DNA from: Arthrobacter sp. fls2-241-R2A-200
Lineage (GTDB): Bacteria > Actinomycetota > Actinomycetes > Actinomycetales > Micrococcaceae
Direction: 5' to 3'
Length of the DNA: 64,000 bases
Assembly: GCF_030209745.1 (NCBI RefSeq)
Contig: NZ_JARVRJ010000001.1
Coordinates: 310,001 to 374,000 of the forward strand
Position numbers and translations under genes: made by a program. Position 1 is the stretch's first letter, and every line of letters starts with the position of its first letter. Of the stretch, positions 45,879-64,000 are shown one piece after another. Under the pieces are notes generated by a model that did not search any database, was not told where the DNA came from, and was given only the letters and a program-made list of their open reading frames with translations.

Positions 45879-48611
45879 ATGTCGGCGGAGTTGCTAAGCA
45901 GCGGTGGGCGAGGCGCAGCTAGTGCTGCGGCTCCGGATCTCGTTGGCAGCGCGGCAGACCGGCAAACGTGGTCCCTCTTGGCCAGGAGCCGCGATTTATC
46001 CAAGGCCGCCATGCAGCTTGAATCCCCGGGCTCCTATGGAGTGGTCCTGACCGGGCAACGTGGCATCGGTAAATCCGGATTGGCCAGGGCACTGGTGTCC
46101 TCGCTTGGCCCTAAGGTCCAGAGCCTTCAACTACGGAACACGGTAGCTGGTTCGGAAACACCGTACGGGTGCTTGGGTTTCTTGTTGGCCCGCCTGCCTT
46201 CCGAAGCGGTGGCCACCCCTACGGGCATCCTCCACGGCATCACGAGGCTGATTCAATCTGAAGCCGCGGGCCGGGACACGGTGGTGATCGTGGATAGTGC
46301 CGGGGGCATGGACCCCATGAGCGCGGGAGTGCTGTTGAACCTTATGGCAACAGGCACCGCCAAAGTGATCGCCACGGTCCAACATGCCAGTGATCTTCCT
46401 CCCGACTTCCACCGCTTGGTCCTGGAAGGACAGTTGGGCGAAGTCCACCTCGAAATGCTGACCGAAGAGCAGACCAAACAGGTCCTGGGCTCCGTTTTGG
46501 GCCATTATGTTTCCGCAACGCTGGTTGGTTCGCTGCACTCGGCCGTGGGTGGAAACCCGATGTTGCTGCATGCACTCCTTGAGGAGCAGCGGCATTCCGG
46601 CAACCTGGTGCTCAACGATTCGGTGTGGACGTTGCGGGAGCAGATCAAGCTCGTCGGTGCTCCGGTGGTGGAGGATTTCGTTCGGTCAAAGTTGGCCCGG
46701 GAATCCCAAGCCCATCGAACCGTCGTCGAGCTCTTGTCCTGCGCGAAGCGAGTCAGGCTCGTTGAGTTGGCCGCCATCGTAGGTACCGAGGTCGTGGTGG
46801 AAATGGAGGACGCTGGCCTACTCACTGTTGATCGCTGCGCCGAGCACTGGGTCTGTCTCAGGGACTCCTTTATCGGGGAAGTCGTCGGCGGATGGCTGAG
46901 CACCCGTCGTCGTCGCGAGTTGCGGTTAATGCTCCTCGGACCCAAGGAACCTAGCCTGGAGGGTCTGGCTTCGCAGGATGTCCTGGCCTACGCCAGGTGG
47001 ATCCAAGCCTGTGAGGATGATACTGCTCCCTCGGCCGCCTACGCACTGGCTGCCGGACGCGCGGCACTGGACGCCTTCGACCCCGCCTTCGCCATCACGT
47101 CCATCGAGTCACTGGATCCCAAGGACGACGAGTGGGTGCCGGGCCAACGTGTCAAAGCGGCCGCTTACTTGATGTTGGATCTGCCGCTGCACGCAGCCCG
47201 GACGTTGGACGAGGTGCCCCCGGACAGGGCTGCGGCGCTGGACCCACTGGAGTTTGCCCACCTTGTTGCGGCACAATGCCAGGCCATGCTCTGGATAGAC
47301 GGCCGCTGTGGCACGATTCCGGACGTTCTCGACCAAGCGGTCGCTGTCCTGGAGAACCGGTCGGAGGGCCATCCAGCGGCAATCATCGCCAAGGCCCGTC
47401 ACCGGCTACAGCTGAGTCGCTACGAGTACAGGACCTTCATTGGCGATTATGCGTCCGTGGTGGAGTCCTTGGAAGACGAGTTCGCGAACGGGCCTGGCGA
47501 GGACTATGACTATTGGATGAGGGCGTGCTTCTACCTGATGGAAGCGCGATGCATCTTGGGCCGGGAGTTGGAGGCGCAAGAGCTTGCACGCACAATGTCC
47601 CGCCATGTGGAAGGCATGGCCCGGTCGCCGCAGCTTGAAGAGGCTTTTGTATTACCGCTTTTCCTGACGTTGCTGATGTCCGGCCAATGGCGCAAATGCG
47701 TGGGGCTCCTGAGCCGGACTCCTTCCCACCCGGCACGCTTGCAGTACCGTGGCGCCCTGCCCGAACTGGGCCGGGGGCTTGCCTTCACGTATGCCGGGAA
47801 GCCGGCCAGCGCCATCGAGCCCCTTCGCTCCGCGGTTGCCCATCTGGAACTTCGGCCCAGCATGAACCTGATCAAAGTCGCTTACGCGGCCACTGCGTTC
47901 GCCTATGCCCAAATAGGGAACTCCGCAGAAGCAGGCCGCTACCTCGACCTCTATAGGACATCCCGTGGTGTGGGCACTTACATCGCCGAATCCATAGCGG
48001 AGTTTTGCGCTGAGATGGCCGGACGTTGGATGGGTGACCCCGACGTCAAGCAGCGGCTTCTCATGAGGGTCCATGACGACGTCGACAATCAGCGCTTGAC
48101 GCCGGCAGGCATCTGTCTGTTCGGCGCCACGGTAGAAGGAAGCGACGACGAATATCGCCTGCTTGAAGACATTGCTGCGCGCAGGCAGGGTCCACTGGCT
48201 CGAATTTCAGGAGATTTGGCCCGGGGAGCCCTCCACAAGAACGCCAATGCGTTGCTTGCTGCGGCAAATGCCGCGGCCAGCATGGACCTGTTGGTGGTAG
48301 AGGCACGATGCGTCGCTATGGCTCTGGACTATGCCCGCGACGCCGGCGAAAGTACCACAGCCCGGACGGCACAGTTGAGGCTTGAGCGGCTGGAACATTT
48401 GGTCTCCGCGCTGCCGATCCATCCACGCAGCGACGCTCCTGTTCTGACCGAGCGTGAACGCCAGATTGCCAAACTCGCAGGGAAAGGTGTCAGCAACCGT
48501 GAAATCGCCATGGATATTGGGGTATCAGTGCGGACGGTGGAGGGTCACCTATACCAAGTGTTTACCAAGCTCGGCGTTACATCCCGCGGCGAACTCCAAG
48601 AGCTGTTATGA
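45879..48611 (+). CDS. Large LuxR-family (LAL-type) ATPase regulator, paralogue 1
   Basis: About 910 residues with the architecture of LAL/MalT-like regulators: N-terminal AAA/STAND ATPase, long helical TPR-like centre, and C-terminal LuxR HTH (LTERERQIAKLAGKGVSNRE to the end). Walker A is GQRGIGKS (about residues 59-66), and TPYGCLGFLLARLP is the family block after it. The Walker B segment reads VVIVDSAGGMD (Asp139-Ser140), so the usual second acidic residue is replaced by Ser. Start is set at the ATG with AAGG six bases upstream; an ATG six bases earlier is possible. Paralogue 2 follows after 41 bp. Signal and targets are unknown. Confidence 0.88.
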   Translation: MSAELLSSGGRGAASAAAPDLVGSAADRQTWSLLARSRDLSKAAMQLESPGSYGVVLTGQRGIGKSGLARALVSSLGPKVQSLQLRNTVAGSETPYGCLGFLLARLPSEAVATPTGILHGITRLIQSEAAGRDTVVIVDSAGGMDPMSAGVLLNLMATGTAKVIATVQHASDLPPDFHRLVLEGQLGEVHLEMLTEEQTKQVLGSVLGHYVSATLVGSLHSAVGGNPMLLHALLEEQRHSGNLVLNDSVWTLREQIKLVGAPVVEDFVRSKLARESQAHRTVVELLSCAKRVRLVELAAIVGTEVVVEMEDAGLLTVDRCAEHWVCLRDSFIGEVVGGWLSTRRRRELRLMLLGPKEPSLEGLASQDVLAYARWIQACEDDTAPSAAYALAAGRAALDAFDPAFAITSIESLDPKDDEWVPGQRVKAAAYLMLDLPLHAARTLDEVPPDRAAALDPLEFAHLVAAQCQAMLWIDGRCGTIPDVLDQAVAVLENRSEGHPAAIIAKARHRLQLSRYEYRTFIGDYASVVESLEDEFANGPGEDYDYWMRACFYLMEARCILGRELEAQELARTMSRHVEGMARSPQLEEAFVLPLFLTLLMSGQWRKCVGLLSRTPSHPARLQYRGALPELGRGLAFTYAGKPASAIEPLRSAVAHLELRPSMNLIKVAYAATAFAYAQIGNSAEAGRYLDLYRTSRGVGTYIAESIAEFCAEMAGRWMGDPDVKQRLLMRVHDDVDNQRLTPAGICLFGATVEGSDDEYRLLEDIAARRQGPLARISGDLARGALHKNANALLAAANAAASMDLLVVEARCVAMALDYARDAGESTTARTAQLRLERLEHLVSALPIHPRSDAPVLTERERQIAKLAGKGVSNREIAMDIGVSVRTVEGHLYQVFTKLGVTSRGELQELL

Positions 48612-48652
48612 GGCCTACGGAGTAGTTTCAATTCTCACGTGCCTGGGCGCCC

Positions 48653-51448
48653 ATGCGGGCTGAGTACCTTGTTGGCAGGGACGGGGAGCTGGGGCTGGCC
48701 CTTGACATATTGCGGCAGGACGGTGTTACTGCCGTTCTCCTGCTGGGCGAGTCCGGCGTCGGCAAGTCAGCCATGGCTGCTGAGATAGCCGCGCGCCTGG
48801 AGCCGGACATGGTGGTGATGCAAATCCACGGAAGTCCTGCGCTGTCCGGGGTACCTTACGGCGTACTAGCGCCGTACCTCGAGGACCTGCCCGTTGGGCA
48901 GGCGACTTCGCCAGTCTCGATCCTCCGCGAGTTTTGGTCCCAGTTCGAAAAGCGCCGGGGGGAAGCTGGATCGCGCCTGGTCCTGGTGATAGACGATGCC
49001 CATGAGCTGGACGACCACAGTACACAGATCGTTGCAGAGCTTGTGACTGCCGGGTGGGCCCGGCTGGTCGCCACCAGCCGGCCCAGGCCCGGCTTGCCCG
49101 CGGCCTTGGTGCAGCTGTGGTACGACGGATTGGCTGAGCGCTTGGAGCTCCGCCCGTTGGACAAAGACGGCGTGGCGGAGTTGGCTGCCAAGAAGCTCGG
49201 CGGAACGGTCATGGCCAGCGTCGTAGACGTGCTCCATGCCGTCTCTGAGGGCAATCCTCTGTTGCTCCAGTGCCTGTTGGCTGACTCGCGCGCTGAGGGT
49301 CAGTTGGTGCGCCGCAACGGTGTCTGGCTCCTGGCCCGGCCACTTACGGGAGGCGGTGAGTTGCTCGCGGAGGCAGCTCGCAACCTGGTATTACGCGCCA
49401 GCCAGTCCGAACGTGACGCAATGTTCGCGATTGCCCTCGCCGAGCCCGTACCCGCAGGGATGCTGGAACCATACGTGGGCAAGGACACCATCCGTTCCCT
49501 GACGGAGAACCGACTCGTGCTTGCCACGGACGGCGCCGGCGGGCCCCTCCGCATCTGGCACCCGCTCTACGGCGAGGCCCTCCGACACTTCATCTCGCCG
49601 CCGCGGAGCCTTCACATCCGCGAACGCCTGGCCCCAGACCTTGCCGGGGAACTCCCTATGGAAGGATTGCTCCGTAGGGTGAGCTGGGCGTTGGACTGTG
49701 GTGCCGACGTCGACGACGATACGCTGCTCCAAGCAGCCTTCCACGCTGCCAAACGGCTGGAGAATCCGTTGGCACTGGCGGCCGCGCGCCAAGTCCGCTC
49801 GGAGGCCCTTCAGCCCCGCGCACGCGCAGTGATGGCCATGGTCCATTACAACGACGGTGATTACCGCAGTGCCGTTGACGTGCTGGGGGCGGACTGCGGT
49901 TTCCTCCAGGGCGGCGCTGCGGACGACGTCGACGGCGCTGCTGCTGTGGGGGTGGGCTTACACGCCGGGCTCTTGGATGTTTGCCTCCTCTGGGCGGCAT
50001 CCAGGGCAGCTTTGGGCCATGCCTCGAAGGACATACTGGCCGACGCACGGGCTACCGTGGGCAACCTCGTAGCCGGACGGGCAGAGTCTGGTCCCGTCGT
50101 GCGGCGCCTCCGGAAGTGCATCGAGGCGCTCGAGTTGGCCGAGCTTGCCCGTGAAGGCAGGTTTGAGGACCTCGCGGCCAGCCTGGAGACGTTCCAAGGC
50201 AACGCCGAAACGGAGTCAACCGACCGCGGGGCGGAGGGGCTTTTCCTGCTGGCCATGCGCTGTGAAGCCTTGATAGCGCAGGGCCGGCCCGTGGCTGCGC
50301 AGGAAGCCGGACGGGAGGCTTTGTCCATGGTAGAGGAACGCCAGGATGACGTCCTGTTCCTCGGTGACTTTGTCCTGATCCGGTATGCCCTTGCCGCACT
50401 GGAATCGGGGGACTGGGACTCCGCGGAGGCGGCCATGGCAGACTTTGCGCCCGGCTCAGTAGCGGGACCAGTTGTTTTCGGTGGCGGCACGCATGCGCTC
50501 ACCGGTCTTTCCCTCCTGCGGCAGGGCCGCGTGGAGCAAGCCAGCAAGGTATTGACGCCAGCTGTGGAGGCTCTTCGCGTCGCTGACCCGCTCCGGCTCG
50601 GCGGCTTTGGAGACGCTCTTGCGTTCTATGCGGCTGCCGCTTCCGGGGACACCGCCGTCGCTGAACGACTCGCAGGTGAAGGACCCACTCGGGAATTCAC
50701 GAGTGGCGGGAGCGCCTATGTCGAGGCACTAGCCGGGCTTTTTCGGATCGCGGGCCAGGCGCATTTGGAGCACCGTGCCAAGTCGGCAAGCTCCATGTAC
50801 TCCGACGACCGCGCGCCGTCCCAAAGCGGGGTATCCTCGAGGCGCGGCGCGGAAGGGACTTCCGGACTGCGGCAACTGCAGGAACTGGAGAGTTCCGGAC
50901 GGTTGGACCGGCTGCCGGGAGTGAAATTCCAGAACGTTGTCCTTCGTGTCGAATTGGGGGACCAGGCTGCCATGGAGTCGGTCCGGGAAACCGCGCGAAC
51001 TGTCGAGGGCGCATGGGTAGCAGGCTGGCGCTCCTTGGCGGATGCGCATCTGTCAGGGGCGGGCCAAGGATTCGTCAGCGCAGGGAACGAGCTCGCGGCC
51101 GCAGGAATGCCCGGGCCCGCTGCCCTTGCCTTCGAAAAGGCGGCCGTGACGTTCGACGCCGAAGGCAAACGCCCGGAGGCACGCCAAGCAGCGGTGCTGC
51201 GCGATGTCAGCGAGGCTAACCTGGGTACTGCTCCGCTTCCAAACGCCCATTCCGACGTCGACCGAACGGTGCCGTTGACGCGGCGTGAACGGGACATCAT
51301 TGCCCTGGCCGTTGCTGGCCTGACGGACCGGCAGATCGCCCAGAAGCTCATGGTTTCGGTGCGTACCGTCGAGGGCCACTTGTACCGCAGCTATGCCAAG
51401 CTGGGCATCCGCCGCCGGGAAGACCTCGGAGCTGCAGTCCACGAGTGA
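48653..51448 (+). CDS. Large LuxR-family (LAL-type) ATPase regulator, paralogue 2
   Basis: 931 residues, same architecture as the upstream gene: Walker A GESGVGKS (residues 32-39), GVPYGVLAPYLEDLP, an intact Walker B LVLVIDDAHELDD (Asp114-Asp115), helical repeats, and a C-terminal LuxR HTH (LTRRERDIIALAVAGLTDRQ, then VRTVEGHLYRSYAKLGI). Only this one of the three paralogues keeps all of these elements. It is probably co-transcribed with paralogue 1. It ends the core segment; the accessory block begins right after its stop. Confidence 0.88.
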   Translation: MRAEYLVGRDGELGLALDILRQDGVTAVLLLGESGVGKSAMAAEIAARLEPDMVVMQIHGSPALSGVPYGVLAPYLEDLPVGQATSPVSILREFWSQFEKRRGEAGSRLVLVIDDAHELDDHSTQIVAELVTAGWARLVATSRPRPGLPAALVQLWYDGLAERLELRPLDKDGVAELAAKKLGGTVMASVVDVLHAVSEGNPLLLQCLLADSRAEGQLVRRNGVWLLARPLTGGGELLAEAARNLVLRASQSERDAMFAIALAEPVPAGMLEPYVGKDTIRSLTENRLVLATDGAGGPLRIWHPLYGEALRHFISPPRSLHIRERLAPDLAGELPMEGLLRRVSWALDCGADVDDDTLLQAAFHAAKRLENPLALAAARQVRSEALQPRARAVMAMVHYNDGDYRSAVDVLGADCGFLQGGAADDVDGAAAVGVGLHAGLLDVCLLWAASRAALGHASKDILADARATVGNLVAGRAESGPVVRRLRKCIEALELAELAREGRFEDLAASLETFQGNAETESTDRGAEGLFLLAMRCEALIAQGRPVAAQEAGREALSMVEERQDDVLFLGDFVLIRYALAALESGDWDSAEAAMADFAPGSVAGPVVFGGGTHALTGLSLLRQGRVEQASKVLTPAVEALRVADPLRLGGFGDALAFYAAAASGDTAVAERLAGEGPTREFTSGGSAYVEALAGLFRIAGQAHLEHRAKSASSMYSDDRAPSQSGVSSRRGAEGTSGLRQLQELESSGRLDRLPGVKFQNVVLRVELGDQAAMESVRETARTVEGAWVAGWRSLADAHLSGAGQGFVSAGNELAAAGMPGPAALAFEKAAVTFDAEGKRPEARQAAVLRDVSEANLGTAPLPNAHSDVDRTVPLTRRERDIIALAVAGLTDRQIAQKLMVSVRTVEGHLYRSYAKLGIRRREDLGAAVHE

Positions 51449-51509: not shown

Positions 51510-52049
51510 CTACTCGCGTGCCTGGAAAAGTTCGTCGAATGCAGCGCCCTGCGCGCGCTGAGTGCGTGACGCTTGAGGATTAAGGTCGGTGCACCATGCC
51601 GGATAGACGCGGAATCCGCGTTTGCCGGGAATCAGGTCGGAGCTGACGTACCCGAGTGAGAGCAGGTGCGCCGTGGTGAATTGGAACACCCCGAACCTTT
51701 CGTGCTCCTGTACGAAGACGAGCAGTCCAGACATCGATTCGTCAGCCGTGAAGGGCCTGGTTGATCCGCCTTCGTCGCGCTTCCAGACAGCGACGAAGGC
51801 GCCAGGCTTTGTCGGTGTGATTCGGGCGGTGCGGATTCGCCACTGCTCCTTCCCGATGCGCGCGACCCCGGATTCGTAGTCGCTGTTCTGTTCTTCACCC
51901 TGGATGACGGGGTGTGCATCGGCAGGAGGAGGCGCAAGGTCGATGAAGCGCTTGAAGGCGTGGAAATTCACCCTCAAACTGTATTCGTTCAAGAATCCGG
52001 CTTGAAACCTGTCCGGTTGACGATCCTTCACCGGAGGCAGTCCCCTCAT
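51510..52049 (-). CDS. MepB family protein
   Basis: A 179-residue protein with the MepB pattern: EQNSDYESGVARIG, IRTARITPTKPGAFVAVWKR, a central LLVFVQEHERFGVFQFTTAHLLSLG region (read in parts), and GKRGFRVYPAW near the end. MepB is named from the staphylococcal mepRAB multidrug locus, but its function is unknown. The start codon overlaps the stop of the upstream epoxide hydrolase (ATGA on the minus strand), so the two are coupled. Confidence 0.8.
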   Translation of the reverse strand: MRGLPPVKDRQPDRFQAGFLNEYSLRVNFHAFKRFIDLAPPPADAHPVIQGEEQNSDYESGVARIGKEQWRIRTARITPTKPGAFVAVWKRDEGGSTRPFTADESMSGLLVFVQEHERFGVFQFTTAHLLSLGYVSSDLIPGKRGFRVYPAWCTDLNPQASRTQRAQGAAFDELFQARE

Positions 52050-53155
52050 AACGTCGGAAGAAACTCCATGATGTCGTCGGCTAGAAGTTCAGGTTCCTCG
52101 TGTGGTGCGAAGTGTCCGCCACGGGGCATCCTTGTGAAGCGCCTTACGTCGTACGTTCGCTCGGCCCAGCTGCGGGGTGGGCTCGCAAGGTCGCGCGGAA
52201 AGAGCGCGAGAGCGGTCGGAACGTTCACCCTTTCGACCCGGGCGGTGAAACCCGCCGCGAACTCGTAATACGGGCGAAACGACGTCCCGATGGAGTTTGT
52301 AAACCAGTACACGGAGGCGAGTGTGATGAGGTAGTCGTCGCTGAATCGTGTCGAGACGTCTCCGTCGCAGTCGCTCCACGCTCGATGCTTCTCGAGTATC
52401 CACGACAGAAGTCCCGCTGGAGAGTCTGAAAGCGCGGGAGCCAGCGTGAGTGGACGCGTCTGTTGCTGGTGTTGATAGGCGCCTTCTGCGGCTACCCACG
52501 CCTCGACTCGGGCCAGGTGTTCGCGTTCTTCTGTAGTCAGTGTCGTCTGGTCATATTGCCGAGGGGCGGCGACCGCCAGGAGGTGGATTCCCGCGACCTC
52601 TTCGGGGTACGCCTGCGCGAGCCGTGAGGTGATGCCGGCGCCAAGATCGCCCCCATGAGCGGCATACCGCGTGAAACCGAGGTGATCGGTCATCAGCGAG
52701 TGCCAGAGATCGTGTGTCTGTTCGCCAAACGTAGGCCTTTGTGGTGAGAACGGCAGTCCAGGGAGGGCTGGAACGATCACCGTGACGGCGTTGTCCGGGT
52801 CCTTCCCGAACTGTGACGGCGTCGCCAAGCGCTGGGCCAGATCTACCAACTCGAGTGCTGTGCTGGGCCATCCATTCGTGAGGACGATGGGAAGACCGCC
52901 TTTGGTCTCTGCGTCGAAGCGGAGGTAGGTAAGGGCGACATCGCCGATGTCCGCCGTCTCCCACGGCAACGCGGCCATCCGACGTTGTTGTGCTTCCCAG
53001 TCGAAATCCTCGGACCAATAGGTGACTAAACGACGCAGCTCGTTGTGGTCGGTCCCGGCTTCCCAACTCGTGGACGGCCAAGGTGTCGACCAACGTGTGT
53101 CGCGGAGTCTCCGGCGCAGATCGGCGACGTCATTGTGGCTGGGCGCGAAGTTCAT
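52046..53155 (-). CDS. Epoxide hydrolase (EHN-domain, alpha/beta hydrolase)
   Basis: 369 residues with the N-terminal EHN domain (DLRRRLRDTRWSTPW; the LRRLVTYW-SEDFDWEAQQRRM block) and an alpha/beta hydrolase core, as in microsomal-type epoxide hydrolases and juvenile-hormone-type relatives. The nucleophilic Asp is in AAHGGDLGAGI; the catalytic His is in RGGHFAPHEEPE. The oxyanion motif, usually HGWP, reads NGWP. AAAGGAG precedes the ATG. The substrate is unknown. Confidence 0.88.
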   Translation of the reverse strand: MNFAPSHNDVADLRRRLRDTRWSTPWPSTSWEAGTDHNELRRLVTYWSEDFDWEAQQRRMAALPWETADIGDVALTYLRFDAETKGGLPIVLTNGWPSTALELVDLAQRLATPSQFGKDPDNAVTVIVPALPGLPFSPQRPTFGEQTHDLWHSLMTDHLGFTRYAAHGGDLGAGITSRLAQAYPEEVAGIHLLAVAAPRQYDQTTLTTEEREHLARVEAWVAAEGAYQHQQQTRPLTLAPALSDSPAGLLSWILEKHRAWSDCDGDVSTRFSDDYLITLASVYWFTNSIGTSFRPYYEFAAGFTARVERVNVPTALALFPRDLASPPRSWAERTYDVRRFTRMPRGGHFAPHEEPELLADDIMEFLPTL

Positions 53156-53207
53156 GAGCTCCTTTAAGTGCAGCGAAGCTCCTCAGTGTGGAGAAGGTTT
53201 TCGAAGC

Positions 53208-53534
53208 TTATCGCCCGAGTGACATCAAGTCGTGTCCGCAAGCCGGTGGCTTAGCGGATTTCTGGGAAGTGGCCGCGGTGCGCCTCTTCCATACTGTCAC
53301 CACCGAGGTAGGACCGCCGTCGGCGTTTTCTGAGCCATCGGCAAGGCGCGGTTTCTCTTGGTCGAACTCGATGGCGCCGTTGTCGACGAACGGGACGGCG
53401 ACGCTCGCGCCGAGCGATTCTGCTTGGGCGATCGCGGCCTTCACGAAAGTCCTGTCGAATAGTGAGCCGTAGAAGCTCCGGGCGGCATCCGGGTCGGCCG
53501 AGCCGACCTCGAAGTAGTTCACTATGGCAGCCAT
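53208..53534 (-). pseudogene. Damaged VOC (glyoxalase-like) gene
   Basis: The 108-codon reading starts like a VOC protein (AAIVNYFEVGSADPDAARSFYGSLF) and then jumps straight to a segment normally about 45-50 residues later (KAAIAQAESLGASVAVPFVDNGAIEF). The expected metal-binding end (HLxDPxGNRFGVW-like) is replaced by an unrelated-looking charged tail. This fits an internal deletion plus decay; a short variant protein is less likely. GGGGA precedes the ATG. It lies upstream of the epoxide hydrolase on the same strand. Confidence 0.6.
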
Positions 53535-53869
53535 CGTGATTCCCCGGGGTAGGCTCCATGCCCATGGAGATGCCCGAGTAGCCGCTATTGAGGAGTCATC
53601 TGATATTGACCCGGGCGGCGCGGCCCCTTGTCGGTAGCCGCTGTGGGGCGGACCAGAAACCGCCAGCCGAGTTGCTTCATTTTTCGGACCCGCGATTTCG
53701 GCCCGTTAAGGATCCGCTAGGCGGAGAACGTAGCCTCTGGTCCGATGCTCTCGCTAGATGCCAGACTGGTCGTATGTTCCGCAGACCTCGTGACGCCGAC
53801 CTATCTTGGCGGCGGTGACCTACCTCAATCCCGTGGGATGGACGCTGCCGCAGAATGTAGGAGCGTCAT
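53535..53869. other. 335-bp intergenic region
   Basis: Short readings exist in several frames but none shows protein character or a good ribosome-binding site. It separates the minus-strand VOC/epoxide hydrolase/MepB group from the plus-strand genes and should hold both promoters. No clear promoter or repeat was recognised. Confidence 0.4.
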
Positions 53870-54202
53870 ATGTCCCGTACCGAGAAGACCCAGCCGTTTC
53901 GTATCCGCCTGTGGGACGGTACGTTGCACCGTCTCGCTGTCCACGATCATCGGGACGGCATCTGCGACCTGCCAACCACCATCCAGGGGGACCTGGAGCA
54001 GGTCGAGCACAAGGACGGCCTTATGGCCCGGTGGTCCTGCCACTGGGAATTCCAGTACACCGGAACAAACACGTGCTGCTGCCCGCTCTGCCATGACGCA
54101 GATGGTCTGCGCGATGAGCGCCGGGCAGAGCGTCATCGGAACCGCCGCGACTTGGCCGAACTGCTGAAGCGGACTCGTCACGGCTGGCGCGAACTCGACT
54201 GA
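53870..54202 (+). CDS. Small hypothetical protein with a Cys cluster
   Basis: A 110-residue protein, basic and His/Cys-containing. TAGGAG a few bases before the ATG supports it. HDHRDGICDLP and TCCCPLCHDADG carry five cysteines and several histidines that could bind zinc; the C-terminal third is an Arg-rich helix (DERRAERHRNRRDLAELLKRTRH, read in parts). I do not recognise a characterised family. Nucleic-acid binding is a guess from composition only. Confidence 0.65.
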   Translation: MSRTEKTQPFRIRLWDGTLHRLAVHDHRDGICDLPTTIQGDLEQVEHKDGLMARWSCHWEFQYTGTNTCCCPLCHDADGLRDERRAERHRNRRDLAELLKRTRHGWRELD

Positions 54203-54515: not shown

Positions 54516-56432
54516 ATGGAACATCAACATGCCTTGGGTACCGCGGTCGGCTGGGGCGGGGTGGGTCCGTGGACCACGGCCCGTTCGGTACCGGGCACGC
54601 GGAGGGTTGTGGCCGCGGTAGCTACCGCGGTGATGGCGGGTTCCTTGTTGCTCGGAGCGGGCGCCCACCCGGCACGGGCGGATACGACCGTACCCGCTGG
54701 CCCCATGTCGGGAGCGGTCGCGGTGAACCAGGCGACCGACAAGATCTATGTCGATAACTATGACTCCACTCTGACGGTGATCGACGCGCCCACCAACACC
54801 ACTGCGACCGTTCAGGCCGGCATGAGCGGCCAGGGCGGGTCGGTGGTTGTAAACCCGGAGACCAACAAGATTTACTTCACCAAGGGCGACGGTTCCGGTT
54901 GTGCTTGTGGTGCCTATCTGGGGGTGATCGACGGGGCCACCAACACCACAACCGGCCTCGGCTTTCCCGTCATCCCGGGCGCAGGGATGCTGGCGGTGAA
55001 TCAGGTGACCAACAAGATCTACGCCTCCGGTGACCGTGGCACCGTGGCGGTGGTCGACGGGGCCACCAACACGAAAACCGCCGTCCCCGTCGCCACCGGG
55101 ACGGGGAAGCTGGCGGTGAACCCGGTGACCAACAAAATCTACGTCGCCCCTTCGTATGGCAGCACTGTGACGGTGATCGACGGGGCCACCAACTCCACAA
55201 CCACCGTTCCCATTGCCACCGGCTACCACCGGATGTCGGTGGCGGTGAACCCGGTGACCAATAAAATCTATGTCGCCAACCGGGACAGCAACATTTTGAC
55301 GGTGATCGACGGGGCCACCAACACCATCGACGCGAACCTCACGACCGGCAATTACCCGAGTGCTGTGGCCGTGAACCAGATGACCAACAAAATCTACGTC
55401 ACCGGGGGCACTGTGACGGTGATCGACGGGGCCACCAACACCACCGCCACCGTCGGCGGCAGCGGTGATTCCGTGGCGGTGAACCAGGCGACCAACAAAA
55501 TCTACGTCACCGGCCTCGGCCAGAACTATGCCAACACTGTGGCGGTGATTGACGGGGCCACCAACACCACCGCGGCGGTTGCCGTCGGCGGCCATTATTC
55601 GGTGGCGGTGAACCAGGTGACCAACAAAATCTACGTCACCAGCTTCGGCAATACTGTGGCGGTGATTGACGGGGCCACACCCAGGAAGGATTACAACGGG
55701 GACGGGAAGACGGACTTGCTGGCCCGGGACCCCGGTGGGAAGTTGTGGTTGTACCCGGGCAACGGCTCCGGTGGCTGGCTGGGCCGGTCCCAGGTCGGGT
55801 CCGGCTGGAACGTGATGACGGCCATCATCGGCGCGGGTGACTTTAACGGGCGCAGTGCCTCCGATGTGCTGGCCCGCGACACCGCGGGCAACCTGTGGCT
55901 ATACCCGGGCAACGGCTCCGGGGGCTGGTTGGCCCGGTCCCAGGTCGGGTCCGGCTGGAACGTGATGACGGCCATCATCGGTTCAGGTGACTTCAATGGT
56001 GACGGAAACATGGACGTGCTCGCCCGAGACAGTGCGGGCAACCTGTGGCTATACCCGGGCAACGGCTCCGGGGGCTGGTTGGCCCGGGCCCAGGTCGGCT
56101 CCGGCTGGAACGTCATGACGGCCATCATCGGTTCAGGTGACTTCACCGGTGACGGCAACATGGACGTGCTCGCCCGAGACAGTGCGGGCAACCTGTGGCT
56201 GTACCCGGGGGACGGCTCCGGGGGCTGGCTGGGCCGGGCCCAGGTCGGCTCCGGCTGGAACGTCATGACGGCCATTATTGGCTCAGGTGACTTCACCGGT
56301 GACGGCAACACTGATCTTCTCGCCAGCGACCAGAATGGCGTCCTGTGGCTGTACCCCGGTGACGGTTCCGGTGGGTGGCTTGACCGCAGCCAGGTCGGCC
56401 AAGGCTGGAACGGCATGACGGCCGTCCCCTAA
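54516..56432 (+). CDS. Secreted YVTN-type beta-propeller protein with FG-GAP/VCBS-like C-terminal repeats
   Basis: About 638 residues. An Arg-containing N-terminus and hydrophobic core (VVAAVATAVMAGSLLLGAG) ending ARA at about residue 52 suggest a Sec signal peptide. Residues about 63-385 hold eight repeats of the form VAVNxxTNKIYV...TVIDGATNT, a YVTN-like propeller. Residues about 387-638 carry an opening DYNGDGKTD and five 50-residue repeats (LARDxAGNLWLYPGNGSGGW...), FG-GAP-like with calcium-loop DxNGDGxxD motifs. It probably folds as two propellers outside the cell; ligand or adhesive role is unknown. It lies inside the accessory block. Confidence 0.82.
   Translation: MEHQHALGTAVGWGGVGPWTTARSVPGTRRVVAAVATAVMAGSLLLGAGAHPARADTTVPAGPMSGAVAVNQATDKIYVDNYDSTLTVIDAPTNTTATVQAGMSGQGGSVVVNPETNKIYFTKGDGSGCACGAYLGVIDGATNTTTGLGFPVIPGAGMLAVNQVTNKIYASGDRGTVAVVDGATNTKTAVPVATGTGKLAVNPVTNKIYVAPSYGSTVTVIDGATNSTTTVPIATGYHRMSVAVNPVTNKIYVANRDSNILTVIDGATNTIDANLTTGNYPSAVAVNQMTNKIYVTGGTVTVIDGATNTTATVGGSGDSVAVNQATNKIYVTGLGQNYANTVAVIDGATNTTAAVAVGGHYSVAVNQVTNKIYVTSFGNTVAVIDGATPRKDYNGDGKTDLLARDPGGKLWLYPGNGSGGWLGRSQVGSGWNVMTAIIGAGDFNGRSASDVLARDTAGNLWLYPGNGSGGWLARSQVGSGWNVMTAIIGSGDFNGDGNMDVLARDSAGNLWLYPGNGSGGWLARAQVGSGWNVMTAIIGSGDFTGDGNMDVLARDSAGNLWLYPGDGSGGWLGRAQVGSGWNVMTAIIGSGDFTGDGNTDLLASDQNGVLWLYPGDGSGGWLDRSQVGQGWNGMTAVP
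55716..56432 (+). repeat. Five near-identical 150-bp tandem repeats (FG-GAP part)
   Basis: Units start at 55716, 55866, 56016, 56166 and 56316 with an exact 150-bp period; the last is shortened. Neighbouring copies are nearly identical in DNA, including synonymous positions, which points to recent duplication or gene conversion. Confidence 0.92.
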
Positions 56433-56725
56433 GCCGTCGGCGGTAACGACCCGTGGAAAGGATCCTGCAATCGTTGCGGAACATGCCTGCAGACGGAGGG
56501 CCATAGGCGCCTCGCCCGGCGTCCGTGTGGACGATCGGCGTGCGGGCACCGGTGCGACATTTAGCGCCGCGAGAATGCCGCCACTTATCGCTAGGATTCA
56601 CAGGGACGTACCCCGACCTTCCCTTTCGATACAGGCACAAAGGGTCGTTTTTTGACTGTTGCGGACAGGGATCCTTGGGCACTTTGCGACTTTCCATCCG
56701 CTACACCGCGGTGGAGGATTGCAGG

Positions 56726-56947
56726 ATGAAGACCATTGAGTGGTGGCCAAAATTAGACGCCGAGGCACAGGCGTGGCTGATCGAACACAACGGCGAGGTT
56801 ATCGCCGCAGATGTGGTGAACAAGATCGCAGCAGCTGGCGGCACCGTGACATCGGACGCTTGGTGGATCGGGGACCGGGGACCCGAGGGAATTTACCTCT
56901 CCGACGAAGCAGTCGATTGGATCGAGGCAACCGCCACCGGCGAATGA
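56726..56947 (+). CDS. Small hypothetical protein, 73 aa
   Basis: A short acidic, Trp-rich protein (IEWWPKLD; DAWWIGDRGP; AVDWIEATATGE) with GGAGG 9 bases before the ATG. The middle VVNKIAAAGGTVTSDAWW resembles a small winged or ferredoxin-like unit, but no family is recognised. It lies alone between the repeat protein and the reductase gene. A longer in-frame reading upstream has no coding look. Confidence 0.62.
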   Translation: MKTIEWWPKLDAEAQAWLIEHNGEVIAADVVNKIAAAGGTVTSDAWWIGDRGPEGIYLSDEAVDWIEATATGE

Positions 56948-57094
56948 ACTGTGGGGTGACCGCGTAAGGATCCTTTCCGTTCGGAGCATCTGCTTGGCGT
57001 GGTGGTCAGCTGGCCCTCGGTGTGGCCTGACCGATCACATTTCCGCGCCATGCGGGTCTGTACAACGAAAACCGATTCACAGGAGACTGGTGCC

Positions 57095-57658
57095 ATGCGC
57101 AAACTAGCCTTCGGCATGAACCTGAGCCTGGACGGCTACATCGCCGCGGCCGGAGACGACCTCGGCTGGAGCGTACCGAGCGACGAGCTGTTCCAATGGT
57201 GGTCCGACCGGGTGGGGGAGACGGGCCTTGCGCTGTACGGGCGCAAGCTGTGGGAGACGATGAGCTCCCACTGGCCGACCGCCGACCAGCAGCCTGGCGC
57301 CACAGCGGCACAGATCGAGTTCGCCCGCCGCTGGCGGGACATGCGAAAGGTGGTGTTCTCCTCGTCGACCAGCACGGTCGGCTGGAATACCCGCCTGGTC
57401 ACCGGCGACGCGGTCACCGAGATCATCCGGCTCAAGGCCGACGACGGCGGCCCCATGGACATCGGCGGTGCCACACTCGCCGCCGCGGCCATGCGGGCCG
57501 GGCTGATCGACGAGTACGTAATCGTCACCCATCCGGTCCTCGTGGGCGGCGGCACGCCGTTCTTCACAGCCCTGGACAACTGGGTGAACCTGAGCCTGGT
57601 GGAGACCCGGACGTTTCCCGACGGCGTGGTCCTTACCAAGTACGAGACCAGGAGCTGA
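57095..57658 (+). CDS. Dihydrofolate reductase/RibD C-terminal-like protein
   Basis: A 187-residue protein of the RibD-C/DHFR-like family (NADPH-dependent reductase fold). MNLSLDGYIAAAGDDLGW at the start, LYGRKLWETM, MDIGGATLAAAAM and the C-terminal EYVIVTHPVLVGGGTPFF are typical of the YwjB/YyaP group. AGGAG 9 bases upstream supports the ATG at 57095. The substrate is unknown. A UUCG hairpin (57679-57694) lies 21 bp after the stop. Confidence 0.87.
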   Translation: MRKLAFGMNLSLDGYIAAAGDDLGWSVPSDELFQWWSDRVGETGLALYGRKLWETMSSHWPTADQQPGATAAQIEFARRWRDMRKVVFSSSTSTVGWNTRLVTGDAVTEIIRLKADDGGPMDIGGATLAAAAMRAGLIDEYVIVTHPVLVGGGTPFFTALDNWVNLSLVETRTFPDGVVLTKYETRS

Positions 57659-57678
57659 GTGCCCGACGTCGAATCAGC

Positions 57679-57694
57679 GCGGGCTTCGGCCCGC
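57679..57694 (+). terminator. GC-rich UUCG-loop hairpin
   Basis: GCGGGC-TTCG-GCCCGC, 21 bp past the DHFR-like gene stop and facing the convergent F420-type reductase gene. The stem is stable, but there is no U-tract. Confidence 0.5.
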
Positions 57695-57841
57695 CCAAAG
57701 AACTCGTGGCGCTGCGTTCGAGGCGATCGTGAGGCTCCTACCGGATCCTGTTCTAACCGCAGACGAGGCGTCCGCTGAGGGATCCCTAACCCAGGTCAGG
57801 ACGCACGGCGCCCTGACCGGTGATTGCTCGGCTCCCGCGGC

Positions 57842-58465
57842 TCAGCCGGCGAATTCGTTGACGCCGAGGGCGAAGTCCCAGTGGCCGACCCCGTTCCCGG
57901 CGAGTCCCACCGTGACCAGGCCCATTCCTTCCAGCCAGTGGGCCATTTTCAGGCCGCCGACGTCCAGCGGGCGCAGCCCGAGGCTTTCGGTGAATGCCGC
58001 CACGTCCGCCTTGGCTTGCGCATTGTCGCCCGCGATAAGGACGTTGGGCCGGCCCTTCTCCAGGACATTGCGGAAGATGGTGTTGAATGCCTTCACCACG
58101 CTGGCGCTGGCCGGGGCCACCTTGGCGACTTCCTGGGCGATCGAGGTCTCCCCGTTGTGGGCCAGCCCGTCGAACGTGGCGTTGAAGGGGTTGCTGATGT
58201 CGATGATGACCTTGCCTGCGAGGGCGTCACCGTACTCTGCGACGACAGGAACGACACCGTCGTACAACAGGGCCGTGATGACGATGCTGCCGGCCGGGAC
58301 GGCTCCCCACGTGCCCGTCGTCGTCCCGCCGCCCAGAGTCTTGGCCAGGTGATCTGCCTTGGACTGGTCACGTCCCATGACTTCGACGGTATTGCCGCCT
58401 TCCACTGCCAGGGTGCCGATAGTGCGGGCCATGTTTCCGGTGCCGATGAGGGTAATAGTGCTCAT
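57842..58465 (-). CDS. NADPH-dependent F420 reductase-like oxidoreductase
   Basis: A 207-residue Rossmann protein of the F420-dependent NADP oxidoreductase/ProC-like group. The dinucleotide loop is LIGTGNMARTIG at the N-terminus; DISNPFNATFDGL and VKAFNTIFRNVL are family blocks. Whether it uses F420 or another hydride carrier cannot be told. It lies 110 bp after the SDR gene on the same strand and is probably co-expressed under the TetR regulator. Confidence 0.85.
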   Translation of the reverse strand: MSTITLIGTGNMARTIGTLAVEGGNTVEVMGRDQSKADHLAKTLGGGTTTGTWGAVPAGSIVITALLYDGVVPVVAEYGDALAGKVIIDISNPFNATFDGLAHNGETSIAQEVAKVAPASASVVKAFNTIFRNVLEKGRPNVLIAGDNAQAKADVAAFTESLGLRPLDVGGLKMAHWLEGMGLVTVGLAGNGVGHWDFALGVNEFAG

Positions 58466-58575
58466 GAGTTGTGCTCTTTTCTTGTTTTAGAGGTGTCGCT
58501 TTGTCTTGTTGGAGATCAGTTCGTTGTGGCGACGGGAGTTGGGAGGGTTTGCCCGTGGGATTCCCGGTGTGTGGT

Positions 58576-59310
58576 TCAGAGTGCAGTGGTGCCGCCGTCT
58601 GCGACCAGTTCCAGGCCGTTGACGTAGCTGGAGTCGTCGGAAGCGAGGAACAGGGCGACTGAGGCGATTTCTTCTGGGCGGCCCATTGCCCCACGGGGAA
58701 TGAGGGACTCGAATGCGGACTTGGTTGCGTCGTCGAAAAGTTCTGCCTGTTTCGCAGTGGCGACCTGGCCGGGGGTCAGGACGTTGACCCGGATCTTGCG
58801 GTCGCGCAGTTCGTTGAGCCACACGCGGGCCCAGGCTTGCTGGACAGCTTTGCTTCCCGCGTAGAGGCTCCAGCCGGGGAATGCTCCGAGGGAGGCGTTT
58901 GATCCGGTCATGAAGATCGAGCCGTTGTCGTTGATCAGAGGCAAGGCCTTCTGGACCGTGAACAGGGTGCCGCGCGCGTTGAGTGAGAACGCGCGGTGGA
59001 ACTGTTCCTCGGTGATCTCGCCGAGGGTGGCGGGTTCGCCCATCCCGGCGCTGGCCCACAGTACATCGATCGAACCCTTCTCCCGTTTGACGGTGTCGTA
59101 CAAGCGGTCCAGATCGTCCAGGTGGGCCGCGTCACCTTGGACGGCGGTGACGTTGCGGCCGATCCGTTTGACGGCGTCATCCAGTGCTTCCTGCCGTCGG
59201 GCCTGGATGAAGACGTGCGCTCCTTCTTCGACGAACAGTTTTGCGCCGGCCAGTGCCATGCCAGTGGATCCGCCGGTTATCACCGCGACCTTGCCGTCAA
59301 GCTTTCCCAT
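58576..59310 (-). CDS. Short-chain dehydrogenase/reductase
   Basis: A classical SDR of about 244 residues from the ATG at 59310 (GGAG six bases upstream). The cofactor loop reads TGGSTGMALA instead of the usual TGxxxGIG; the catalytic set is SNAS...YAGSK, and the tail has the usual ELVADGGTTAL ending. It is divergent from a TetR gene with an inverted-repeat operator between them, so it is the probable regulated target. The substrate is unknown. Confidence 0.91.
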   Translation of the reverse strand: MGKLDGKVAVITGGSTGMALAGAKLFVEEGAHVFIQARRQEALDDAVKRIGRNVTAVQGDAAHLDDLDRLYDTVKREKGSIDVLWASAGMGEPATLGEITEEQFHRAFSLNARGTLFTVQKALPLINDNGSIFMTGSNASLGAFPGWSLYAGSKAVQQAWARVWLNELRDRKIRVNVLTPGQVATAKQAELFDDATKSAFESLIPRGAMGRPEEIASVALFLASDDSSYVNGLELVADGGTTAL

Positions 59311-59337
59311 GAGTGCTCCATTCATACGTCCCGTCGG

Positions 59338-59407
59338 CGTTAAGTACACCGAACTGAGTGCTTAACGTATCCACGTGGTTGGGCGTGGCTCAAGTTAAGT
59401 ACACCGA
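59338..59407. promoter_or_regulatory. TetR operator region between SDR and TetR genes
   Basis: CGTTAAGTAC (59338-59347) and GTGCTTAACG (59358-59367) form an inverted repeat matching at 9 of 10 positions around a 10-bp spacer. GTTAAGTACACCGA occurs at 59339 and again at 59394, the second copy 31 bp before the TetR ATG. The arrangement fits repression of both divergent promoters. Confidence 0.72.
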
Positions 59408-59437
59408 GCCGTACCCTTGGTGGGATAAGCTGGTTGT

Positions 59438-60082
59438 ATGACGGAGTTGAAGAAAGGACCGCGGGGTCTGCGCCGGGGTAGGGGCGCGCGGGAGCGCATC
59501 CTCAGCGCATCACAGCAACTGTTCCGCGATCAGGGCATCAACTGCACCGGGATGGACCAGCTCTGCGCGTCGGCTGAGGTGTCCAAGCGAACGCTGTACC
59601 AGCACTTCGCCGGCAAGGACGAGCTGATCACCGAATGCCTCCGGCAATTCGATCCCAACATCCTGCCCGAGGTCTTCGACCGCACCGACCTCACGCCCCG
59701 CGAACGACTCCTCGCCATCTTCGACATCCACGCGCCCCTGTGCCCGTTCATCGCAGCGGCCGTCGAAATCCCCGACCCTGACCACCCGGCACGCGCCTAC
59801 GCCCGCAACTACAAAAGAGATTTTGCCGCGCGGCTCACGGATACCGCCCGCGACGCCGGCGCCACCAACCCCGAGGAGCTCGGCGAGCAACTCGCGCTGC
59901 TGCTGGACGGCGCTTCGGCCCGGAGCCGGGTCCTCAACACCGACACCTTCGCCACCGCTGCCGCCATCGCAACGGTCCTCATCGACAACGCCACCCCCAG
60001 GGCAATGGCACCGGCCGGCGCCATTGCCGTCGAACACCCTGGCCAGGCCCGCGTCCTTGAACACACCCCTGGGCAGATGTGA
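59438..60082 (+). CDS. TetR/AcrR family repressor of the divergent SDR operon
   Basis: 214 residues. The HTH region (RERILSASQQLFRDQGINCTG...VSKRTLYQHFAGKDEL, in parts) is at about residues 17-65; the C-terminal domain resembles the TetR_C group that senses small organic ligands. Divergent arrangement with an SDR and shared GTTAAGTAC operators imply autoregulation and control of the SDR/F420-type pair. The ribosome-binding site is weak. Confidence 0.9.
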   Translation: MTELKKGPRGLRRGRGARERILSASQQLFRDQGINCTGMDQLCASAEVSKRTLYQHFAGKDELITECLRQFDPNILPEVFDRTDLTPRERLLAIFDIHAPLCPFIAAAVEIPDPDHPARAYARNYKRDFAARLTDTARDAGATNPEELGEQLALLLDGASARSRVLNTDTFATAAAIATVLIDNATPRAMAPAGAIAVEHPGQARVLEHTPGQM

Positions 60083-60219: not shown

Positions 60220-60250
60220 GGCCATTCATTGGAGTAATGGGCCGTTTTTT
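60220..60250 (+). terminator. Intrinsic terminator with T6 tract
   Basis: GGCCATT pairs with AATGGGCC (one bulged G) around a 9-nt loop, followed by G and six Ts. It lies 138 bp after the TetR stop, farther than expected for that gene. Confidence 0.85.
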
Positions 60251-60483
60251 CGTGTCCCAACCAAGTAGTGCAGGTCCGCGGTACTGAGTACAACAGGGTA
60301 TGTGCCGAACCAAAGCTCCCAAGTAATCGAGTACCAACTACTGGTGTACGGGGTTCATCCGAACGGCAGGATTGTTCTTGGAAGAACGGTTTAGCCCCAA
60401 GCATCACCGGGATTCCACAAGTCGCATCATCCGCATCGGTGGTCTCTTTGAGCCGATGCACCGGCCGTCGAAAGGCGGTTCGG

Positions 60484-60562
60484 CCTTGGACGAAGCCGGC
60501 GGCGACAGAGTCTTCTGAGACCGAGACTCTCCCCCCAGCCGCCGCCGGCTTCTAGGCCAAGG
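60484..60562. repeat. Nested inverted-repeat element upstream of LAL paralogue 3
   Basis: GAAGCCGGCGGC (60492-60503) and GCCGCCGGCTTC (60541-60552) are perfect arms; CCTTGG/CCAAGG (60484-60489, 60557-60562) extends them, and AGAGTCT/AGACTCT (60507-60513, 60524-60530) forms an inner hairpin. No U-tract follows, so it is more likely a leader structure or mobile-repeat remnant than a terminator. Confidence 0.75.
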
Positions 60563-60621
60563 ACCCGCGAATCGCGGAACCCAAACTTCCCGGACCAGGG
60601 ACTGCTGCTATTGGAGTGTGC

Positions 60622-63057
60622 ATGTTGCCGGATCCTTGGCTGGATGAAGAAACTGCCGAATCAGGCCTGAAGCCATCAGCCTTCCCGGACCGGACACAGT
60701 TGCTCCAGCTCATCGTTTCCGCTGTACCCTCACCTTCCACCCACGGCGTCGTGGTAGTAGGTGACCGGGGATCTGGAAAGAGCGGGTTGTTGCGGGCGGT
60801 CAAGGCGGCCCTTCCTGCCAACCTGGACGTCCGCAGCTTTGCCGGAACGCCCGAACTTGCAGCGACCCCCTACGGCATCTTGAATGCGCTCAACGAAGCC
60901 TACGAGGATCAGGGCACCCCGCCGGGATTGAATGTCCTCCGGGCTTTCACCCGCACGCTCGGTCCGGCGCAGCACTTGTTCGCCCCCGGCAATGCGCGAC
61001 GCCGGAGCCGCGGCGGTCCGCCGTCGGGCAGGCCTCCACTGGTCCTGCTGGTGGACGATATCCAGCACATCGACCAAGCCTCTCTGGCCGTCCTTCTTCA
61101 GCTGATCCCGGGGTTCGGTGCCACCCTGGTGGCCACGGCAGACAGCGGAGGGCCACTTCCGCAGGATCTCTACCAGCTGTGGGAGGACGGGTTCCTGGAG
61201 CAGTACGCGCTCCCGCCGCTGACTTTCCCGGAAGCGCATCAGGTGTGCAGGAGCATTCTTGGGGGCAACGTCCAGGAGCGAGCCAGCGCTCTCCTCTGCG
61301 CATTGAGCGGTTTCAACGTGGGTTTCCTGCGCCTTGCGATCGAGGACGCCCTTGAGGCCGGACTCCTGGTACTGCGGCACGGCTTCTGGACTATAGACGC
61401 CGGCCTGCACTGTCACTGGCCACGGGTGGTTCGCCGCGTGGAGTGTGAGAACGCCCAGCGACCCGACGAGGAACGGGAAGCACTCGAACTCGTGGCGCTC
61501 GCGGAACCGTTGCCCCTGGAGACTGTGGAGCGAAGCTATGGCCAAGTCGTCGTGGAGCGGCTGTTGGCCTCCCACCACCTCAGGCTGCTGGCGGGGCGCC
61601 CGCCCCTGATCCGGACGGCGTCCTGGCTATTTGGCGAGGGAACGCGGCGGTCGGTGCCAGCGTCGCGCAGTATCGCTTTGCGGTTGGCGGCGGATGTGCC
61701 CTCCCTGACGCCTGCATCGGCACCGACCATGCTCCGATGGTTGACGTGGACGCTCGCGTGCGGATTGCCACTGCCTGAAGAGCTTCTGCTGGCCGCGGCA
61801 CCGGCCGCTGACAGGCCCTCCACAGCAGCGCTGGCACTGCGCGCAACGGCCGCGGTGGCAGGAGTTGCGCACCGGGACGAGGTGAGGCTCGTGACGGCCC
61901 GGGCCTTGGTGGCCGAAGGCCGCCTCCGGGAAGCCGCCCTGGAGTTGCGGCAGTTGGCGGCGGCTGGAATCCCGGCCGAGGTTCGCGTAAGTGCCGCAGA
62001 CCGTCTCGCGGCCTTGGAGCTGTTAGGGGTAGTGGAAGGCGAACCGTCGGGAGTGTCGGAGGATGCCGATTCCCTGACCGGGGCCGTCAGGGAATCGGAA
62101 CGGCTGGTGCTCGCCGGCAACTTCAGGGCGGGATTGGCACCATCCTCGGCGGCAATGGACAACATTGCTGCTGATCCTCGCTTGGAGGTCTTTCGGCCCG
62201 GTGTGATCCTGAGGCACATGGTGGCCCTCAGGTACAGCCTGGCCTGGGAAGAAGCGGATGGCTTGCTGGAGTCCGCCACCGTGTACGCGCTGCCGCTGCA
62301 TGTTGCCCTCTGCCATGACGTTGCACGCGGGTACACCCAACTCAGCCAGGGGTTACTGCCGACGGCACAGCGGACGTTGGAGCCGGCGGTTGCAGAACTG
62401 TCCGACGCCGGCCTCCCGGCCGTCTACTCGCTTGCCACAGCCATGCTCGCGTATGTGGAGGCGGCCACCGGACAGACCGAACGAGCCACTGCAAGGATCA
62501 AGGAAAGTGGCGCCGCCATGGCTCGGATCGGCACCGGCCAACTCCTGCCGCAGCTCGCTGGCTTGTTCACTGCTGCAGCCCAGGATGCGGCGGATGCCCC
62601 GTCCGGTTACCTACTGCACCTGGCCGGGCGGTTCCGTGCAGAAGGACGGCCTACCCTGGAGGCCGAAGCGTTATCGCTCTCTGTGCTCAACAAGGCGAAC
62701 GCAGGTGTAGCAGCCGATGATCCAGTGATTGGCCGCTTGACTGAGGTGGCGGGGAGCCTGGACGGTGCTTGGGCCTCGTCGCTCGGTAAGTTCGCCTCCG
62801 CCCTGGGGACTGACAACCCAAGACTGCTGGAACTGGCGGGAAAGTCCCTCGCCTCGGACCGCCAGTTTGCGCACGCTGCGATGTGCTATTCCCGTGCGGC
62901 GAGCGGATATGACGCAAGTGGACGCTGGGCTGCTGGCCGGCGCGCGGCCGGCCTCCTCCAACGGCTCCCTGGCGCACTCGAGAGTGAGGTTGCTCCATCC
63001 CCGGGAGGGGTGCTGGGGACAACCGCGGGTGAGGTGGCCAACGGCACACCGTTGTGA
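60622..63057 (+). CDS. LAL-type ATPase, paralogue 3, without an HTH domain
   Basis: About 811 residues from the ATG at 60622 (GGAG five bases upstream; an earlier GTG overlaps that site). Walker A is GDRGSGKS (about residues 47-54), ATPYGILNALNEAYED follows, and Walker B is LVLLVDDIQHIDQ (Asp145-Asp146). The rest is helical, TPR-like. The C-terminus stops after RRAAGLLQRLPG plus a Gly/Thr-rich tail, where the two paralogues upstream begin their LuxR HTH; no HTH is seen. It could work as a regulatory partner rather than a DNA-binding protein. SufS follows 53 bp later. Confidence 0.82.
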   Translation: MLPDPWLDEETAESGLKPSAFPDRTQLLQLIVSAVPSPSTHGVVVVGDRGSGKSGLLRAVKAALPANLDVRSFAGTPELAATPYGILNALNEAYEDQGTPPGLNVLRAFTRTLGPAQHLFAPGNARRRSRGGPPSGRPPLVLLVDDIQHIDQASLAVLLQLIPGFGATLVATADSGGPLPQDLYQLWEDGFLEQYALPPLTFPEAHQVCRSILGGNVQERASALLCALSGFNVGFLRLAIEDALEAGLLVLRHGFWTIDAGLHCHWPRVVRRVECENAQRPDEEREALELVALAEPLPLETVERSYGQVVVERLLASHHLRLLAGRPPLIRTASWLFGEGTRRSVPASRSIALRLAADVPSLTPASAPTMLRWLTWTLACGLPLPEELLLAAAPAADRPSTAALALRATAAVAGVAHRDEVRLVTARALVAEGRLREAALELRQLAAAGIPAEVRVSAADRLAALELLGVVEGEPSGVSEDADSLTGAVRESERLVLAGNFRAGLAPSSAAMDNIAADPRLEVFRPGVILRHMVALRYSLAWEEADGLLESATVYALPLHVALCHDVARGYTQLSQGLLPTAQRTLEPAVAELSDAGLPAVYSLATAMLAYVEAATGQTERATARIKESGAAMARIGTGQLLPQLAGLFTAAAQDAADAPSGYLLHLAGRFRAEGRPTLEAEALSLSVLNKANAGVAADDPVIGRLTEVAGSLDGAWASSLGKFASALGTDNPRLLELAGKSLASDRQFAHAAMCYSRAASGYDASGRWAAGRRAAGLLQRLPGALESEVAPSPGGVLGTTAGEVANGTPL

Positions 63058-63089: not shown

Positions 63090-64000
<911 letters not shown>

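Follow-up and report, generated by a model that had tools for sequence, protein, structure and literature searches.

LAL genes at the pth locus

The window, by which we mean the whole stretch of DNA analysed (64,000 nucleotides of Arthrobacter sp. fls2-241-R2A-200), carries towards its 3' end three genes for large LAL-type proteins, here termed LAL1, LAL2 and LAL3. The features of the locus are as follows.

45122..45706, + strand: pth (peptidyl-tRNA hydrolase; TIGR00447 over cut-off), conserved upstream neighbour of the array
45873..48611, + strand: LAL1, 912 aa, STAND ATPase plus GerE HTH, without the second Walker B acid (DS in this genome)
48653..51448, + strand: LAL2, 931 aa, complete STAND ATPase (GESGVGKS, VIDDAH) plus GerE HTH
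51510..60082, no single strand: inserted block, outside the module (MepB-like, epoxide-hydrolase-like, FG-GAP repeat protein, RibD_C, F420_oxidored, divergent SDR/TetR pair)
60328..60346, + strand: predicted palindromic operator CGAGTACCAACTACTGGTG, from the intergenic alignment and motif scans
60452..60554, + strand: structured RNA, a covariance-model match, with a covarying hairpin (60489-60554) that has a GAGACC loop and a C6 bulge
60616..63057, + strand: LAL3, 813 aa from GTG (811 aa from the alternative ATG at 60622), HTH-less STAND ATPase paralogue, sister to LAL2
63111..64000, + strand: sufS, truncated where the window stops (441 aa in L079), followed on the contig by sufU and nhaA

A previous sequence-only reading of this DNA had described three large paralogues with a common architecture, and both the open reading frames and Pfam bear this out. 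AAA_16/AAA_22 is matched in all three proteins, the LAL1 match lying under the gathering score, and the same search places a GerE HTH in LAL1 (1.1e-13) and LAL2 (2.2e-11) and finds none in LAL3. The layout is that of a STAND ATPase with helical repeats, the ATPase being recognised by Pfam and the repeats by the long helical second half of the LAL3 structure model. The best Foldseek match of that model is the STAND protein 6mfv (E 2.6e-05), at a TM of only about 0.2. Mean pLDDT is 65.6 for LAL2 and 62.3 for LAL3, and since the models are too weak in the ATPase half, we draw no argument about oligomers from structure.

The divided functions proposed by the same reading hold up as conserved anatomy. 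The altered Walker B motif of the first paralogue is real: among 48 LAL1 sequences the Walker B pair is DN in 24, DT in 19, DS in 2, SE in 2 and ED in 1, and DD in none. LAL2 is complete, as had been described, with DD in 46/46 and an HTH in 46/46, and the third paralogue, with DD in 16/17, lacks the HTH throughout (0/17). The HTH is found in 47/48 LAL1, the sole miss being a broken ORF in one genome (G030). The P-loop GK is kept in 48/48 LAL1, 43/46 LAL2 and 17/17 LAL3, the LAL2 alignment including variant forms such as ADPGIGKT. For these counts the rows were 37 genomes of the genus plus the named LAL3 loci, with three duplicate assemblies dropped (L084, L086 and L087, the same assemblies as G033, G034 and G008); the LAL2 rows were set by BLAST score, and two further rows of the LAL2 clade, classed as extra, stand outside the 46.

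In a phylogeny that likewise excluded L084, L086 and L087, LAL3 forms a monophyletic clade (support 1.0) that is sister to the LAL2 clade (support 0.948). Its dN/dS of 0.13-0.22 (7 pairs) indicates a maintained gene, not a decaying one; given the absence of the HTH from all 17 sequences, we regard it as a LAL-derived protein rather than a LAL regulator.

In the 36 other genomes of the genus examined, pth is followed by orthologues of LAL1 and LAL2, often with more LALs. LAL1 and LAL2 occur together in 36/36 (in pieces in G030), and pth lies upstream in 35/36, the exception beginning at a contig edge. LAL3 is present in only 33 of 206 genus genomes (E <= 1e-100), and the 15 named loci that hold it are each labelled Paenarthrobacter or Arthrobacter. 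At the pth locus LAL1 and LAL2 make up the conserved core, to which LAL3 is an addition. An obligate three-part switch is not supported by this distribution, which is independent of that of the core genes, a pattern the sequence-only reading had itself counted as a refutation. Nor are the three genes contiguous here, 9,167 bp of other genes separating LAL2 from LAL3; the gap is 461-673 bp in other LAL3 loci, from which the genes of the inserted block are missing. The block leaves operator, RNA and LAL3 as one group.

A covarying RNA and a palindrome in the non-coding stretch

Two conserved blocks, a palindrome and a hairpin, lie in the non-coding stretch preceding LAL3 or, in loci without LAL3, preceding sufS; neither the RNA nor the operator featured in the sequence-only reading. 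They were delimited in an intergenic alignment from which G023 was dropped besides L084, L086 and L087. Within the hairpin, 95.4% of cells are paired and 15 of 19 pairs are changed on both sides, counts that lean towards the fold because the model that retrieved RNA copies from beyond the genus already contained it. None of 500 shuffles scored as high on any measure, and slid controls were 28-61% paired. The + strand is favoured, both by score (84 vs 27 bits) and by the balance of G-U over A-C cells (68 vs 16). The GC-rich stem is followed by C/T-rich bases, and changes in its length that are not multiples of three speak against a coding origin of the hairpin.

The RNA appears to fall outside the families catalogued in Rfam. 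Across positions 45000-64000 of the window there was no Rfam 15 match at gathering score, and across 20 loci with related RNAs there was just one tRNA, away from the RNA. A permissive scan spanning the RNA (601 bases) returned just seven sub-gathering hits, six to what are by name miRNA families of animals or plants and one to a Pseudomonas sRNA outside the hairpin, which we read as chance. 6C RNA (RF01066) is likewise an actinobacterial RNA with C-runs; this identity was rejected, as this genome has no RF01066 match. A pseudoknot between an upstream GGTCTC and the GAGACC loop can be drawn in 21 of 44 sequences; 17 of the 21 come from LAL3-bearing loci, and we do not claim it. The literature searched yielded no description of RNA or operator, and the main texts of PMC11109978 and PMC8632094 contain none of Arthrobacter, Micrococc-, Actinobacteri-, LuxR or sufS.

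Occurrence of the RNA is confined in our samples to one family. A 30-nt hairpin pattern (at most 3 mismatches) matched 32 of 59 genomes once each, all of them among the 37 of the genus and none among the 22 of other families. The covariance model found the RNA in 85 of 197 family genomes, and of 396 order-wide genomes, sampled and searched with stricter filters, a model built from 40 diverse copies picked out 22, all of which belong to the window's family. Copy number ranges from one to five per genome.

As for the operator, in 40 of the 47 loci that have a hairpin core the strict palindrome GAGTA-N5-TACT precedes it by 159-187 bp, and variants (e.g. CGGGTAA...CTACTCGTG) occur at other core-bearing loci. 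Half-sites reading AGTAC/AGTAG are seen close upstream of the operator in the window. At no more than one mismatch, CGAGTACNNNNTACTSGTG gives 212 matches in the 37 genus genomes against 46 for the reversed pattern, and 15 against 25 in the 22 genomes of other families. The 66 LAL genomes from other genera of the family give 101 against 85 control hits, and the 119 family genomes without a LAL1 match 76 against 151. Outside the genus, then, the motif is hardly enriched genome-wide, and what sets it apart is solely where it sits, next to RNAs and LALs: among the 56 matches listed in LAL genomes, 13 are no more than 5 kb from a LAL match and 11 no more than 400 bp from the RNA.

Position was assessed with a matrix trained on the pth-locus sites (threshold 8 bits). 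Of the 19 other-genus loci, which are the best matches of the family RNA search, 14 have a site at or above threshold upstream of the RNA, vs 0 of 190 control windows, as do 10 of 21 extra RNA copies, vs 2 of 308 control windows; the remaining 5 loci and 11 copies score under 8 bits. The 21 copies were hand-picked, comprising 19 of the 25 far copies listed together with G180 C4 and G079. Among LAL genes, with L084, L086 and L087 kept in this count, the operator is upstream of 11 of 28 extra LALs and of all 20 LAL3, the last figure not being independent because those sites trained the matrix. Within 300 bp upstream it was found before none of 50 LAL1 and none of 49 LAL2, from which we conclude that the core genes are not behind the operator in the genus.

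Linkage to LAL arrays and the candidate regulon

A LAL1 match (1e-40) is present in 78 of 197 family genomes. The RNA is found in 76 of these 78, and in 72 of those 76 it is at most 10 kb away from one of the listed matches; related genomes make such counts non-independent. Nine further genomes have the RNA and no LAL1 match, and eight of the nine have LAL-type ORFs within about 10 kb, a raw count with no background control. G214 has the RNA and no LAL in the roughly 10 kb fetched around it, and G119 and G128 have LALs and no RNA match. A second RNA copy lies between pth and the first LAL in five genomes of three genera (G249, G065, G089, G137 and G216).

In the window's own genome there are 4 operator sites at no more than one mismatch and 0 control hits; at 2 mismatches the motif is not enriched there (37 vs 73 control hits). 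One site is that of the pth locus, one precedes a gene for a 48-aa CxxC protein, and two stand before surface-polysaccharide clusters identified by Pfam. The first of these clusters begins with a sugar transferase (Bac_transf), after which come an oxidoreductase and an epimerase; the second, about 9 kb beyond sufS, holds glycosyltransferases, a Polysacc_synt protein and PIG-L. The 48-aa protein (L189:5222-5368) has no Pfam match, and similar ORFs stand behind the operator in L202, L203 and L207.

Altogether we read 21 operator sites in ten genomes, three of them from the window's genome, excluding pth-locus sites; outside that genome translations were read by eye, and 20 operator neighbourhoods were hand-picked from the matches listed. 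A sugar transferase or glycosyltransferase is the first or second downstream gene at 9 sites, which amount to only about four orthologous groups. The 48-aa gene follows 4 sites, secreted or lipoprotein-like ORFs follow 3, and 5 are without a clear target. At one locus (L201), a 907-aa LAL-like ATPase ORF was seen by eye upstream of an operator copy, adjoining glycosyltransferase-like genes.

A putative LAL-RNA regulatory system and its alternatives

The combination of a LAL array, an RNA outside Rfam and an operator that also stands before surface-sugar genes points to what may be an unrecognised regulatory system. The interpretation that we lean towards, with slightly more confidence than doubt, is that a LAL1/LAL2 switch drives the RNA and a surface-polysaccharide regulon via the operator, with LAL3 as a feedback subunit. 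LAL1 and LAL2 would together form a STAND-type switch, responding perhaps to a carbohydrate or envelope signal, which would bind CGAGTACNNNNTACTSGTG through its GerE HTHs and activate both the RNA next to the array and the surface-polysaccharide gene clusters. LAL1 would bind ATP and, lacking the second Walker B acid, slow the return to rest, with LAL2 providing hydrolysis. The RNA is probably a free-standing small regulatory RNA whose GAGACC loop and C-run may contact targets. In Paenarthrobacter and relatives the same promoter would also drive LAL3, which, being LAL2-derived and unable to bind DNA, may join a mixed oligomer as a feedback brake or sensor subunit.

Among known systems, MalT acts as one self-contained protein. 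It resembles the LALs in having a P-loop STAND core, a repeat-type sensor and a DNA-binding domain, and its domain III is a weak structural match of the LAL3 model (E 9.9e-03), whereas the LALs are conserved paralogues whose defects complement one another and to which an RNA is linked; none reaches the MalT NCBIfam cut-off (best 36.1 bits vs 537). In the excerpted text of PMC4381067, this STAND/LuxR-type activator of E. coli multimerises to bind repeated boxes cooperatively, and ATP hydrolysis restores the resting state. Since hydrolysis resets MalT, and since LAL1 is missing a Walker B acid, a prolonged active state would be expected of the latter. Also comparable is IniR, a mycobacterial trehalose-responsive STAND regulator of an envelope-stress operon and so, like the LALs, an actinobacterial STAND regulator; unlike at the LAL locus, the excerpts of PMC5760070 describe no RNA or array. 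LAL1 (52.3 bits) and LAL2 (50.4) match its NCBIfam model weakly, under the cut-off of 750. The best NCBIfam match of all three LALs is the LuxR family regulator AbsR2, again under its cut-off (best 119.8 bits vs 850). GacA-Rsm and similar systems combine a LuxR-type HTH regulator, a palindromic upstream site and several small RNAs per genome; here, by contrast, the regulator is a STAND array, and the fold and conserved loop of the RNA differ. In Arthrobacter sp. UMCV2, which shares large ATPase-LuxR proteins, several luxR-type genes are induced along with DMHDA-stimulated swarming, and the part of PMC9659744 consulted gives no array, operator or RNA.

If correct, our model would tie LuxR-type STAND genes without known targets to an operator, a covarying non-Rfam RNA and a candidate surface-polysaccharide regulon, in harmless, easily grown soil bacteria. 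With conserved losses in two paralogues, one of a catalytic Walker B acid and the other of the HTH, the array offers a natural test case for mixed STAND oligomers. Such oligomers have been discussed for NLR pairs in eukaryotes.

Other explanations of the same data have to be weighed. The pth slot may be no more than shared, operator and RNA serving an unrelated regulator and the LALs acting elsewhere. The lack of an operator upstream of LAL1 and LAL2 would follow naturally from this, as would the scant genome-wide enrichment of the motif in LAL-bearing genera besides the window's own. We nevertheless think it improbable, because LAL arrays across many genera of the family, arrays without sufS among them, come with the RNA or the operator; RNA or operator also precedes a second array in G024 (L057), and the operator stands before 11 of 28 extra LAL genes. 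Returning to LAL control of the RNA, an elaboration to which we give rather little weight is that the RNA in addition attaches to the LAL oligomer, serving as its effector, scaffold or titrator; these would then be RNA-tuned STAND regulators of surface polysaccharide, to which one species group has added an HTH-less subunit.

A further question is whether the hairpin instead acts in cis on the gene downstream of it, sufS or LAL3, as a leader or attenuator. At the pth locus of the genus it is co-oriented with one or other of these genes, and here LAL3, the first gene after the RNA, is 61 bp away; several of the extra copies, too, precede co-oriented ORFs. However, 6 of the 21 extra copies have a convergent gene next (L210, L213, L217, L218, L225 and the second copy in L226; ORFs judged by eye), which favours a free-standing RNA, and the genes downstream vary from copy to copy, so that we consider a leader unlikely. 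In L223 and L224 the RNA copies overlap the start of ORFs that by eye resemble SARP/BTAD-type regulators, an overlap that a leader would accommodate. An ordinary strong terminator would account for the GC-rich stem and the C/T-rich bases after it, but hardly for a GAGACC loop, C-run and stem sequence largely conserved across genera, nor for a family-restricted element, in our sample, of one to five copies per genome with an operator often upstream; this explanation we find very hard to credit.

The sequence-only reading had also suggested that the three LALs may build a single hetero-oligomeric switch, perhaps with SufS as its link to the supply of sulfur or Fe-S. In its favour, the complementary defects of the paralogues are conserved, and sufS, followed by NifU_N (SufU) and then nhaA, is found downstream of the array in 32 of the 36 genus genomes, as far as the fetched stretches reach. 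It is unseen in G005, G019, G020 and G031, perhaps just because the fetched stretch or the contig stops short, and in G012 and G022 lies only about 10 kb on, beyond a further LAL. Where LAL3 is present sufS begins 53-98 bp after it, and this is the only over-cutoff SufS of the window's genome, away from sufBDC. Against this stand the restriction of LAL3 to a minority of genus genomes, the want of any sulfur gene among the operator targets read, and five loci of other genera (G072, G081, G076, G065 and G188) that have array and RNA and no SufS match in the stretch fetched, at least 5 kb downstream. As sufS adjoins the array in four other-genus loci (G128, G249, G242 and G207) and is missing from those five, a shared chromosomal slot explains the adjacency equally well. 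The sulfur link is not supported, and we hold a switch of this kind to be distinctly unlikely. Neither sufS nor sufU was among the six genes tested in the sufB cluster, which is on another contig. The sufS-sufU pair (L079:612-2448) lies apart from the L131 cluster, which contains two SufBD-core proteins, a Rieske protein, an ABC ATPase and FeS_assembly_P.
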